Below are positions 45,809 through 49,044 of a stretch of 64,000 nt of DNA, piece after piece (positions within the stretch are counted from its first letter, which is position 1; every line of letters begins with the position of its first letter). Both the position numbers and the translations under genes were made by a program. The stretch is taken from assembly GCA_947501265.1 (NCBI GenBank), contig CANMVY010000001.1, positions 186,001 to 250,000 of the forward strand, read 5' to 3'. The stretch comes from Bacteroidota bacterium. GTDB taxonomy: Bacteria; Bacteroidota; Bacteroidia; UBA7662; CANHCV01. The notes under the pieces were generated by a model, which ran no database searches, had not been told where the DNA came from, and saw nothing but the letters and a program-made list of their open reading frames with translations.

Positions 45809-46864
45809 TCACCGTGTCATCTCAATTTTTCCTCGTTGTTCATAGAGAATGCTGCTCTTCCTCCGTTGAATCAATCGGCCCGATGGAGGAAGAACGATTT
45901 TACAATTCCGAACAATCAAAACCGAGCGACGACCCAAAATCAAATCACCCCTCAAGAAACGATTTCCGGAAACAAGCAGCGTATCTCCCGGCGAAATGAA
46001 CACATCCAAAGAGTCGTAGATTTGAAGGTAATCTGGAACTAAAAAATCGCGGGGAATTCCTGGATTGGACAAAGCGAGATGAACCTTCCCAACTTGGCAA
46101 GGAGTCCACGCATTTTCGTTGGCATTGTAATCCATCACATTGTTCGAAGGAATCTTACATGGCCCCTCCTCGGCAACGTTCCAACAATTTTCATTCATGG
46201 GAGTATCATCGCAACCATCGTTTTCGTTCCACGTGTGGAACAACCCCAAAGAATGTCCAATTTCATGATTGAAGAGTCCGGCACCGAACCATGCCCACCG
46301 TTGGTAATTTTTGAAATGGTAAAACAACCCTCCCACCTTTGCCCAATCACTGGCTCCGATTCCTCCGGTTTTTCCACTTCCGTCGGTATTTTCAAAGAGG
46401 AAAACGTTCAACACCTTTCCTTTTTGCTTTCCGTATTTTTCAAAAATGGAAGGATCGAAAATGGTGGAAATATCGGAACGATTGAAGCGATAATCGGAAT
46501 CGGAACGGATGAAATAAATTCCGTCGGGTGCAGCAGAATCGCCAGACAGCTCGTACCGAATTTGGATGGGAACCACGGGAGTTTGGTTGCCTTTCGGCAA
46601 ATTCATGGGTTGGTTGTTGGCCAATAATCCGTTGGCTGCAGCCACCAAATCTCGGGCAAATTTCCGGCCCGTTTCTTCATCAAAATTTCCAGAACCATCG
46701 CTTTTGCTAACAAAATGAATGTTGATGCGCACGGTTTTCACGGGCATCCATTCCAACGAAGAAGGAGTTGGAACATAATCCCTCCAGTTTTGTTGGTAAA
46801 GCTGCCCAATTCCCAAGGAAGGAAAAAGAAATAAACCCATCAAAACTACCAAAAATTTCGTCAT
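45809..46864 (-). CDS. Secreted M43-like zinc metalloprotease without a sorting domain
   Basis: A 351-residue exported protein with a signal peptide (residues 1-20, LVVLMGLFLFPSLGIG). The full metzincin zinc motif HEIGHSLGLFH is at residues 200-210 and the Met-turn is NNVMDYN. The C-terminal part (GDTLLVSGNRFLRGDLILG onward) is beta-rich and ends abruptly in basic residues. No type IX sorting domain is visible, unlike the other metalloprotease in this window. The ATG at 46864 overlaps the fucosidase TGA (ATGA), so both are made from one mRNA. Confidence 0.87.
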   Translation of the reverse strand: MTKFLVVLMGLFLFPSLGIGQLYQQNWRDYVPTPSSLEWMPVKTVRINIHFVSKSDGSGNFDEETGRKFARDLVAAANGLLANNQPMNLPKGNQTPVVPIQIRYELSGDSAAPDGIYFIRSDSDYRFNRSDISTIFDPSIFEKYGKQKGKVLNVFLFENTDGSGKTGGIGASDWAKVGGLFYHFKNYQRWAWFGAGLFNHEIGHSLGLFHTWNENDGCDDTPMNENCWNVAEEGPCKIPSNNVMDYNANENAWTPCQVGKVHLALSNPGIPRDFLVPDYLQIYDSLDVFISPGDTLLVSGNRFLRGDLILGRRSVLIVRNCKIVLPPSGRLIQRRKSSILYEQRGKIEMTR

Positions 46865-48258
46865 TTCACCCACATTTTTACGACGGTGGCATGCGGATTG
46901 GTGCAAAAGGCTTTCGCATTTCCAACGGTAATTTGGGTGGTTCCCAAATCTTCGATGCTTATCCCGCACGAGGTTTTACTCCCTAAAACTTGCGCTTTTG
47001 TTACATGGAACGGCACTTCTATGGTTTGGGAATTGGGGGTATTCAGAAGAATGGCATAAATTACATTTCCTTTTTGGGTGAATACCATTCCTTCCTTTTC
47101 GTAGGGTGCTATCGGCTGAGTTCCATAAATGGCTTCTCCGTGCACCTTCATCCAATCTCCTATTTCTTTCAATCGGGCCAAAGCGGTGTCGGGCAATTTT
47201 CCATTCGGATCGGGCCCGATGTTCAACAACAAATTACCACCCCGACTTACGATTTTAGATAAGGTTTGCACAATTTGGGTGGTGGTTTTGTACCGATCAT
47301 TGGGAACATAACTCCAAGAATTGGCCATGGTTAAACAGGTTTCCCAAGGATGATTGATCGTTTGGTGGGGCACTTCTTGTTCAGGGGTGGTATAATTTTC
47401 CAATGCCCCGCCCACAGAACGATCCACCACCAACATTTCGGGATTGTTCTTTTTCAGTTCGGGAAGCATGTCCCCCAACCGAATGTCTTGTTCGTAGGGA
47501 ATGGTTTTTTGCCACGAAACCGAGGTATCGATGCTGGCGTAAGGACGAACCCATCCTCCATCCAACCAAAGAATATCAATTTTTCCATATTCCCCTCCGG
47601 TTAATTCTTTCAATTGCTCGAAGGTAAAATTGCGAAAAGCCTCCCAACGTTGGGGGTACTTCTTGGGATCGTAATTGGAATTTCGGTCTTTGGGAGGAAA
47701 ATAGCTCCACCAATAATCTTTGGCATGCCAATCGGGTTTAGAAAAATACGCACCGATGAGAAATCCCCGCTTGCGAAACGAAGAGAAAATCTCCTTGGCA
47801 ATGTTGGAGCGGGGATTGGACGCAAACGGATAATCGGGATTGGTGATTTTATAATCGGTTTGCTTGGTATCGAACATGCAAAATCCATCGTGGTGCTTGG
47901 TGGTAAAAACCACGTACTTCATCCCTGCGTACTTTGCCGCATCGGCCCATGCTTCGGGATTGAATTGCACCGGGTTGAAAACCCTGGGAAGGGCCTCATA
48001 TTGCGCCTTGTAGGTTTGATAATCGGCCGAATAGGGGCCGCATCGAACGGTCCATCCTTCGTCTTCCGGACAAAGGGACCAAGATTCTACGATTCCCAAT
48101 TGGGAATACGTTCCCCAATGCATCAATAATCCAAATTTCTGATCCTGCCAGTTCTTCAATCCGCGAAGGGTAGAGGAATCGGTTGGGCTTACGTACGGCC
48201 ATTGCGCTTGAGCAAAAAGAGAGTAAAAAAGAGCGATAAAAAAGAGGTTCCACTTCAT
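46861..48258 (-). CDS. Alpha-L-fucosidase (GH29)
   Basis: A 465-residue glycoside hydrolase with a signal peptide (1-18). GH29 landmarks: FGLLMHWGTYS near residue 42, the VFTTKHHDGFCMF substrate-binding block at about 117, and the nucleophile Asp233 in IDILWLDGGW. A C-terminal beta domain follows. It should remove alpha-L-fucose from glycans in the periplasm or outside. The acid/base residue is not identified. No sorting domain is seen. Translationally coupled to the downstream metalloprotease, an unusual partner. Confidence 0.92.
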   Translation of the reverse strand: MKWNLFFIALFYSLFAQAQWPYVSPTDSSTLRGLKNWQDQKFGLLMHWGTYSQLGIVESWSLCPEDEGWTVRCGPYSADYQTYKAQYEALPRVFNPVQFNPEAWADAAKYAGMKYVVFTTKHHDGFCMFDTKQTDYKITNPDYPFASNPRSNIAKEIFSSFRKRGFLIGAYFSKPDWHAKDYWWSYFPPKDRNSNYDPKKYPQRWEAFRNFTFEQLKELTGGEYGKIDILWLDGGWVRPYASIDTSVSWQKTIPYEQDIRLGDMLPELKKNNPEMLVVDRSVGGALENYTTPEQEVPHQTINHPWETCLTMANSWSYVPNDRYKTTTQIVQTLSKIVSRGGNLLLNIGPDPNGKLPDTALARLKEIGDWMKVHGEAIYGTQPIAPYEKEGMVFTQKGNVIYAILLNTPNSQTIEVPFHVTKAQVLGSKTSCGISIEDLGTTQITVGNAKAFCTNPHATVVKMWVK

Positions 48259-48270: not shown

Positions 48271-48514
48271 CCAAAATTGAGGAGGGTTTCCGTTCAAAAT
48301 GGGAAAAATGGAGCTCTTTTTTTCATGTGGATAAGCCTGAAAGAAGAAACAAAAAGATACTAATGAACAACATACCCAATATTCTGACACTCCATGACAC
48401 CATTTTTTTAAAAACATAATCACTTGCTTTACTTTGTTTTAAGTCATTTTTTTTTGATTTTTTGAGAAGTTTTGCACGTAGAAAAAGCTGTGGATAAATA
48501 AATAGACAAAAAAA

Positions 48515-48550
48515 GTGGGAGGAAGTGTCAGGAATTGGGAAGATGTGTTA
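48515..48550 (+). promoter_or_regulatory. Putative MraZ box array upstream of mraZ
   Basis: Boxes TGGGA (48516-48520), TGTCA (48526-48530), TGGGA (48536-48540) and TGTTA (48546-48550) repeat with exact 10-base period, with GGAA spacers before the second and third. TGGGA repeats spaced by five bases are the known binding sites of MraZ. The array covers the -33 region and meets the -7 element TACCTTAG, so binding would repress the dcw operon. Confidence 0.75.
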
Positions 48551-48556
48551 CCTTAG
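48549..48556 (+). promoter_or_regulatory. Candidate -7 element of the dcw operon
   Basis: TACCTTAG (five of six positions), 20 bases before the mraZ ATG; the last MraZ-type box ends inside it. It has no good -33 element, which would suit a regulated promoter. Confidence 0.45.
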
Positions 48557-48576: not shown

Positions 48577-49044
48577 ATGGCGCACTTTTTAGGAGAACAT
48601 AACGGCAAACTGGACCCGAAGAATCGGGTGGTATTGCCGTCTGCTTTATTGAAGCAGATGTCTCCGGATGCGATGAACCAAGTGGTCTTGAAAAAAGGGT
48701 TGGGAAAATTCTTAGTGGTGTACCCGCTGAATGTGTGGTTAAAGACCATCGATGAAATTTCCAAAATCAACCAATTTAATCCTCAGGCATCTGAATTCCG
48801 CCGTCGCTTTTTAATGGGCGCATCATCCCCAATGGATTTGGATTCAGCCAGCCGATTCTTAGTACCAAAAAATATGTTGGAGCACGCTGGGTTAAAGAAA
48901 GACGTTGTGCTCTTGGGAGATATCGATAAAATTGAATTGTGGGATCGTGAAGAATACGAGCGATACCTCCAAAATCCCGACATTGATGAGGCGGCATTGG
49001 CTGCTCAAGTACTAGGAAAGGAGGTTTCCGGTGGCCACCTTTGA
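48577..49044 (+). CDS. mraZ: Transcriptional regulator MraZ
   Basis: A 155-residue DNA-binding protein with two tandem SpoVT/AbrB-type domains (EHNGKLDPKNRVVLPSAL and LDSASRFLVPKNMLEHAG). It binds TGGGA repeats upstream of the dcw operon and controls it. I chose the ATG at 48577 because it starts MAHFLGEHNGK; an upstream in-frame codon at 48535 lies inside the box array. Its stop overlaps rsmH by 14 bases. It carries no unusual features. Confidence 0.95.
   Translation: MAHFLGEHNGKLDPKNRVVLPSALLKQMSPDAMNQVVLKKGLGKFLVVYPLNVWLKTIDEISKINQFNPQASEFRRRFLMGASSPMDLDSASRFLVPKNMLEHAGLKKDVVLLGDIDKIELWDREEYERYLQNPDIDEAALAAQVLGKEVSGGHL

Follow-up and report, generated by a model that had tools for sequence, protein, structure and literature searches.

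A DnaA-box motif beside the MraZ box array at the dcw promoter of Bacteroidia: a candidate composite cell-cycle promoter

The dcw promoter of the Bacteroidota bacterium studied here is probably a composite cell-cycle promoter, on which MraZ would bind four boxes and DnaA an adjacent TTATCCACA box at a constrained spacing. About four fifths of the genomes sampled from the class Bacteroidia pair a predicted DnaA box with an MraZ operator, which suggests a direct link from replication to division. We describe the anatomy of this promoter, its conservation, its spacing, its restriction to the class, and its association with a residue of DnaA, starting from a 64,000-nucleotide stretch of one contig (hereafter the window) of genome G000 and extending to related genomes.

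An MraZ Box Array Precedes the dcw Cluster

The mraZ gene (48577..49044, + strand) was identified by a TIGR00242 equivalog match above cut-off and encodes two MraZ domains. It is the first gene of a standard dcw cluster, in which it is followed by rsmH, an ftsL-like gene, a PBP/FtsI-type gene, murE, mraY, murD, an ftsW-like gene, murG, and murC. A single-protein search returned matches in two Bacteroidetes MAGs only, both of the same genus. Divergent from mraZ lies an alpha-L-fucosidase gene (PF01120; window 46861-48258, - strand), and a peptidase M43 (pappalysin-like) gene carrying the motif HEIGHSLGLFH occupies window 45809-46969 (- strand).

Four boxes stand in front of mraZ on the + strand: GTGGGA (box 1, 48515..48520), which is identical in G001 and G002; GTGTCA (box 2, 48525..48530), a Mollicutes-like GTGT box; TTGGGA (box 3, 48535..48540), with TTG in place of GTG; and GTGTTA (box 4, 48545..48550). 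An earlier note on this DNA had placed TGxxx starts at 48516, 48526, 48536, and 48546 in exact 10-base steps, and direct reading of the sequence confirmed both the positions and the steps. As that note had also claimed, box 4 shares the first two bases, TA, of a -7-like element, TACCTTAG (48549..48556, + strand), which is conserved in f1 and f2. This element is a partial match to the -7 consensus TAnnTTTG; the class consensus, with -7 positions assigned by a simple score, is TAcTTTTg. The proposed overlap of the boxes with a -33 region was borne out only as to place: the boxes span the position expected for a -33 element, but TTTG is absent there. No TTTG -33 element was present in the window's mraZ promoter at the usual spacing of 19-20 bp, nor was one present at 17-23 bp spacing in any of the 117 class promoters scored. 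A search of Rfam gave no match.

The 64 kb window contains a single instance of the exact four-box pattern. With up to three mismatches allowed, approximately 0.09 matches were expected from shuffled sequences, and a looser form of the pattern was found at one place in the window; when the 318-bp intergenic region was simulated as 20,000 Markov-1 copies, none contained it. Alignment of the regions upstream of mraZ in relatives showed that all four boxes and their spacing are kept in two congeners while one spacer varies: in G001, the bases between boxes 2 and 3 change from GGAA to CAGT with the boxes unchanged. Across three congeners, the DnaA box, the array, and the promoter together make up the chief unchanging stretch of the promoter region. 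Among members of the order, the array has four or five boxes whose frame is retained and whose letters differ (in G003, GTGGGG, GTGGGA, GTGGAA, and GTGCTA), and similar 10-bp arrays are found in the 131 Bacteroidia mraZ promoters sampled, where the boxes are mostly TGGTA, TGGGA, and TGGGG, typically three or four per array. These class arrays sit upstream of the -7 element and run towards it. The reading of the array as an MraZ operator is thus upheld by relatives near and distant.

The alternation of TGGGA with TGTNA boxes, which had been put forward as a variant of note for Bacteroidota, proved weak. TGTNA boxes occur in 20/131 arrays, true alternation is found in genus f1, and alternation-like patterns beyond that genus were seen in G021 and G054; the alternation was rejected as a conserved Bacteroidota code. 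Published MraZ sites share a GTG core (PMC7761207), and the Mollicutes site, as summarized in PMC8475190 from Fisunov et al. 2016, is AAAGTG[T/G]. The mixed array is therefore a variant inside the known range, and, judged by its letters, this is an MraZ operator of the ordinary kind, in which the alternation is a minor, lineage-specific variant.

A Perfect DnaA Box Lies Beside the Array

Directly upstream, outside the segment described by the earlier note, lies a perfect match to the Escherichia coli DnaA-box consensus TTATnCACA / TTWTNCACA (PMC5742627, PMC7561715). This proximal box, TTATCCACA on the - strand (TGTGGATAA on +; 48489..48497), begins 88 bp ahead of the mraZ ATG and ends 17 bp short of MraZ box 1, with the -7 element 51 bp away; the genus retains it, as does nearly every order member that was examined. 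The earlier picture of the site stood as regards the array but had missed this perfect box. The predicted DnaA box, conserved among relatives, is the part of the locus that had not been expected. The DnaA protein of the host carries GGRDHSTV, the canonical box-contacting residues (DH[ST]TV in domain IV).

A second, distal TTATCCACA box (48326..48334, - strand) is located 251 bp before the mraZ ATG. It has an equal position in three congeners, and none was seen in f2. Its position at 48326 is 68 bp from the start of the alpha-L-fucosidase gene, where it might act as well. A possible third, weak box, TTTTGCACG (48470..48478, + strand; TTTTACACG in G001), emerged from the three-congener alignment; this candidate has one mismatch to TTWTNCACA, and its N position varies. 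Perfect DnaA boxes number only two in the 64-kb window, both before mraZ, and 15 in the 2.33 Mb genome.

Two further arrangements of DnaA boxes were observed elsewhere in this genome. An inverted pair of perfect boxes, TTATCCACAGTTTGTGGATAA (L048 6134-6154; G000:C2:121133-121153), lies in the divergent promoter region between a gene for a 2-oxoglutarate/Fe(II)-type oxygenase and an htrA/degQ-like protease gene, and a near-palindromic pair, TTATCCACGATGTGGATAA, is found near parA (MGKIICIANQKGGVGKSTT...) at L010 around 1501 (G000:C2:177117).

The DnaA-Box Motif Recurs at Fixed Spacing Across Bacteroidia

The class was sampled as 131 mraZ promoters from 55 families, drawn evenly from a larger group. 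Of the 131 Bacteroidia promoters, 109 (81% when weighted by family) carry the motif TTWTYMACA on either strand in the 45 bp preceding the MraZ array, a lower bound, given that two of the misses are misplaced anchors (L086, L092). Of the 22 arrays lacking the strict motif, some have closely similar sequences, for example TTGTCCACA (G061) and TTATCGACA (G070). In each of four adjoining 45-bp control bins, the motif was found in 3-10% of promoters. Forward boxes occur in 37 families, mostly as TTTTCAACA, TTATCAACA, and TTATTAACA, and reverse boxes in 11 families, mainly as TTATCCACA and TTTTCCACA. With -7 positions assigned by score, 53/75 forward boxes end 37-39 bp from the -7 element, and 16/22 reverse boxes end 50-52 bp from it. 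The tight spacing to the -7 element favours action on the promoter, and the occurrence of two orientations favours a protein site over base composition.

It is scarcely credible that the DnaA-like box is a by-product of AT-rich sequence or of chance, with the MraZ operator alone being real. The upstream DNA is indeed AT-rich, but 300 shuffled motifs of the same composition averaged 0.9%, with a maximum of 20%, against the 81% obtained with the motif itself, and chance would not account for the sharply peaked spacing.

The pairing is restricted to the class. In other classes of the phylum, TTWTYMACA stood beside the array in 1/36 promoters (Fisher's test against Bacteroidia, 8e-20); many of those promoters are of the TTGAC type, with the promoter upstream of the boxes. 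No DnaA box adjoins the array at the E. coli mraZ promoter. Genome-wide in G000, at least 315 occurrences of TTWTYMACA were counted, compared with at least 277 of the reversed control; because it is barely commoner than that control, the motif is not a general promoter element.

We also considered whether the 9-mer could be one more MraZ box, in degenerate or inverted form, as it adjoins the array and GTGGA within TGTGGATAA is similar to GTGGRA. This is very unlikely, as four observations argue against it: same-orientation GTG-to-GTG offsets are mostly 13, 15, or 25, values that are not multiples of 10; the commonest form, TTTTCAACA, is oppositely oriented and has lost the GTG core (GTTGA); the WAA end matches that of DnaA boxes in its degree of conservation; and MraZ arrays of other classes occur without the 9-mer.

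The two perfect boxes within 163 bp, the AT-rich stretch between them, and the flattening of the GC skew nearby would fit an origin of replication, or a site that titrates DnaA, positioned ahead of mraZ by coincidence. We nevertheless hold this to be highly improbable, since the class mostly has one box, placed with bp-level spacing to the mraZ promoter, and an oriC-like box cluster lies elsewhere in G058. The window's GC skew shows no clean sign change, and skew cannot settle the position of oriC in G000 because the chromosome is in 26 contigs. Among the dnaA loci examined, a box cluster upstream of dnaA was found in G095 only. The G058 cluster is a candidate oriC of family f41, an AT-rich region with four DnaA boxes (L183 1062-1353; G058:C1:11561-11853), near a nadB-like gene and approximately 10 kb from dnaA.

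Box Base 6 Follows Residue 435 of DnaA

The TnCACA part of the box is recognized in E. coli DnaA by the helix from residue 434 onward, and the T435M variant is defective (PMC5742627). Residue 435 and box base 6 agree in 58/65 genomes, an association that comes down to essentially one shift on the tree, so that its Fisher value is not a phylogenetic probability. Genomes with Ala435 have A6 in 36 cases and C6 in 3, whereas those with Ser/Thr435 have C6 in 22 and A6 in 4; the exceptions run both ways (G152, G134, G162, and G040; G078, G131, and G157). On a DnaA tree of 75 rows, Ala435 arose essentially once, which indicates one coupled shift with scattered exceptions rather than dozens of independent events. 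A reading of the association as strong independent covariation was accordingly downgraded.

In 16 genomes, almost all of them from the Ala435 clade, 47 doublets of A6 boxes were counted against 12 of the reversed pattern, about a fourfold excess, and many of the A6 doublets are 19-21 bp apart, about two helical turns. TTWTYAACA doublets lie upstream of HU genes in eight genomes (L281, L286, L288, L293, L295, L299, L278, and L279), and A6-box doublets precede purH in three (L274, L285, and L290) and a transketolase N-terminal gene in three (L284, L296, and L302). The identity of HU was established by profile for one gene; the other HU genes and the purH and transketolase genes were recognized from their translations. 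From the positions of these doublets, the HU, purH, and transketolase genes are plausible DnaA targets in the Ala435 clade, and together they resemble a regulon of replication and nucleotide genes. In Ser435 genomes, the HU promoters have a mixture of C6 and A6 boxes, which blurs the picture of an A6/C6 regulon. Upstream of dnaA itself, the CAACA variants, which are candidate DnaA boxes of their genomes, are only weakly enriched in the Ala435 clade, and a search of that clade for oriC located none.

The same observations bear on whether the 9-mer belongs to another Bacteroidia transcription factor with a DnaA-box-like motif, next to an ordinary MraZ operator. Many variants, among them TTTTCAACA and TTATTAACA, have a base 6 other than that of the E. 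coli consensus, and the presence of the motif at HU, purH, and transketolase promoters would suit a dedicated regulator controlling those genes. We consider this explanation unlikely, because the canonical TTATCCACA is found in nearly every member of the window's order, base 6 tracks the recognition residue of DnaA, and the C6 and A6 forms share one place. Recognition of the 9-mer by DnaA remains the preferred reading.

Discussion

Binding by DnaA, binding by MraZ, and the sign of the regulation are predictions from the promoter sequences. In the mechanism that we propose, MraZ, a ring-shaped autoregulator, would bind the 10-bp-phased boxes spanning the -33 region to the -7 element and would thereby cover the upstream contacts of the polymerase, and DnaA, the replication initiator, would bind the 9-mer directly upstream at the same promoter. 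DnaA more likely activates the promoter, with MraZ opposing or modulating it, because the promoter has no recognisable -33 element and the box lies approximately 50-70 bp upstream of the start. MraZ has been reported to act as a repressor in E. coli, and in M. genitalium the other dcw genes go up when mraZ is lost (PMC8475190); on these two grounds, repression by MraZ is the default assumption. Other signs may apply, namely competition, co-repression, or DnaA as a repressor.

The array resembles the E. coli dcw operator, which consists of direct TGGGN boxes (Eraso et al. 2014, as summarized in PMC8475190 and PMC7761207): in both, GTG-core boxes are repeated directly in front of mraZ at 10-bp intervals, and the array of E. 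coli reads GTGGGA-GTGGGG-GTGGGA. The window array differs in having four boxes, two of them of the GTGT type, and in its placement, which is upstream of the -7 element and reaches into it, whereas the arrays of E. coli and B. cenocepacia are downstream of the -10 (PMC7761207). In most members of other classes of the phylum, unlike in Bacteroidia, the array is not upstream of the -7. As far as the summarized Mollicutes site goes, GTGT is accepted there as well as GTGG, and window boxes 2 and 4 fit it; the window array differs from it in mixing GTGT with GTGGGA boxes and in being paired with a DnaA box.

With known DnaA-regulated promoters, the locus shares an exact consensus 9-mer, a fixed spacing, and a host DnaA whose domain IV reads GGRDHSTV. 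It differs from them in that the promoter is that of mraZ and the dcw cluster, that an MraZ array abuts the box, and that the arrangement is conserved through the class. In Caulobacter, DnaA controls division genes such as ftsZ. A literature search, with most subscription journals outside its range, found no paper linking a DnaA box with MraZ boxes. The MraZ operator and the DnaA box are each of a known kind singly, and the class-wide pair at the dcw promoter appears, as far as that search reached, to be new.

A broader proposal, that DnaA and MraZ jointly control dcw throughout the class, that DnaA specificity shifted together with its sites (residue 435 from Ser/Thr to Ala, base 6 from C to A), and that the regulon takes in dcw, HU, purH, and transketolase, could be correct, and we advance it tentatively.

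The coordination of division with replication in bacteria is a long-standing question, and to our knowledge little is known of it in Bacteroidota. A DnaA box fixed at the MraZ operator in about four fifths of the promoters sampled from this large class would constitute a direct link between the two processes that can be mutated through one 9-bp change. If true, the association with residue 435 would amount to a naturally occurring shift in DnaA specificity together with its target sites, and searches for DnaA boxes that use the E. coli consensus would need correcting in these genomes.
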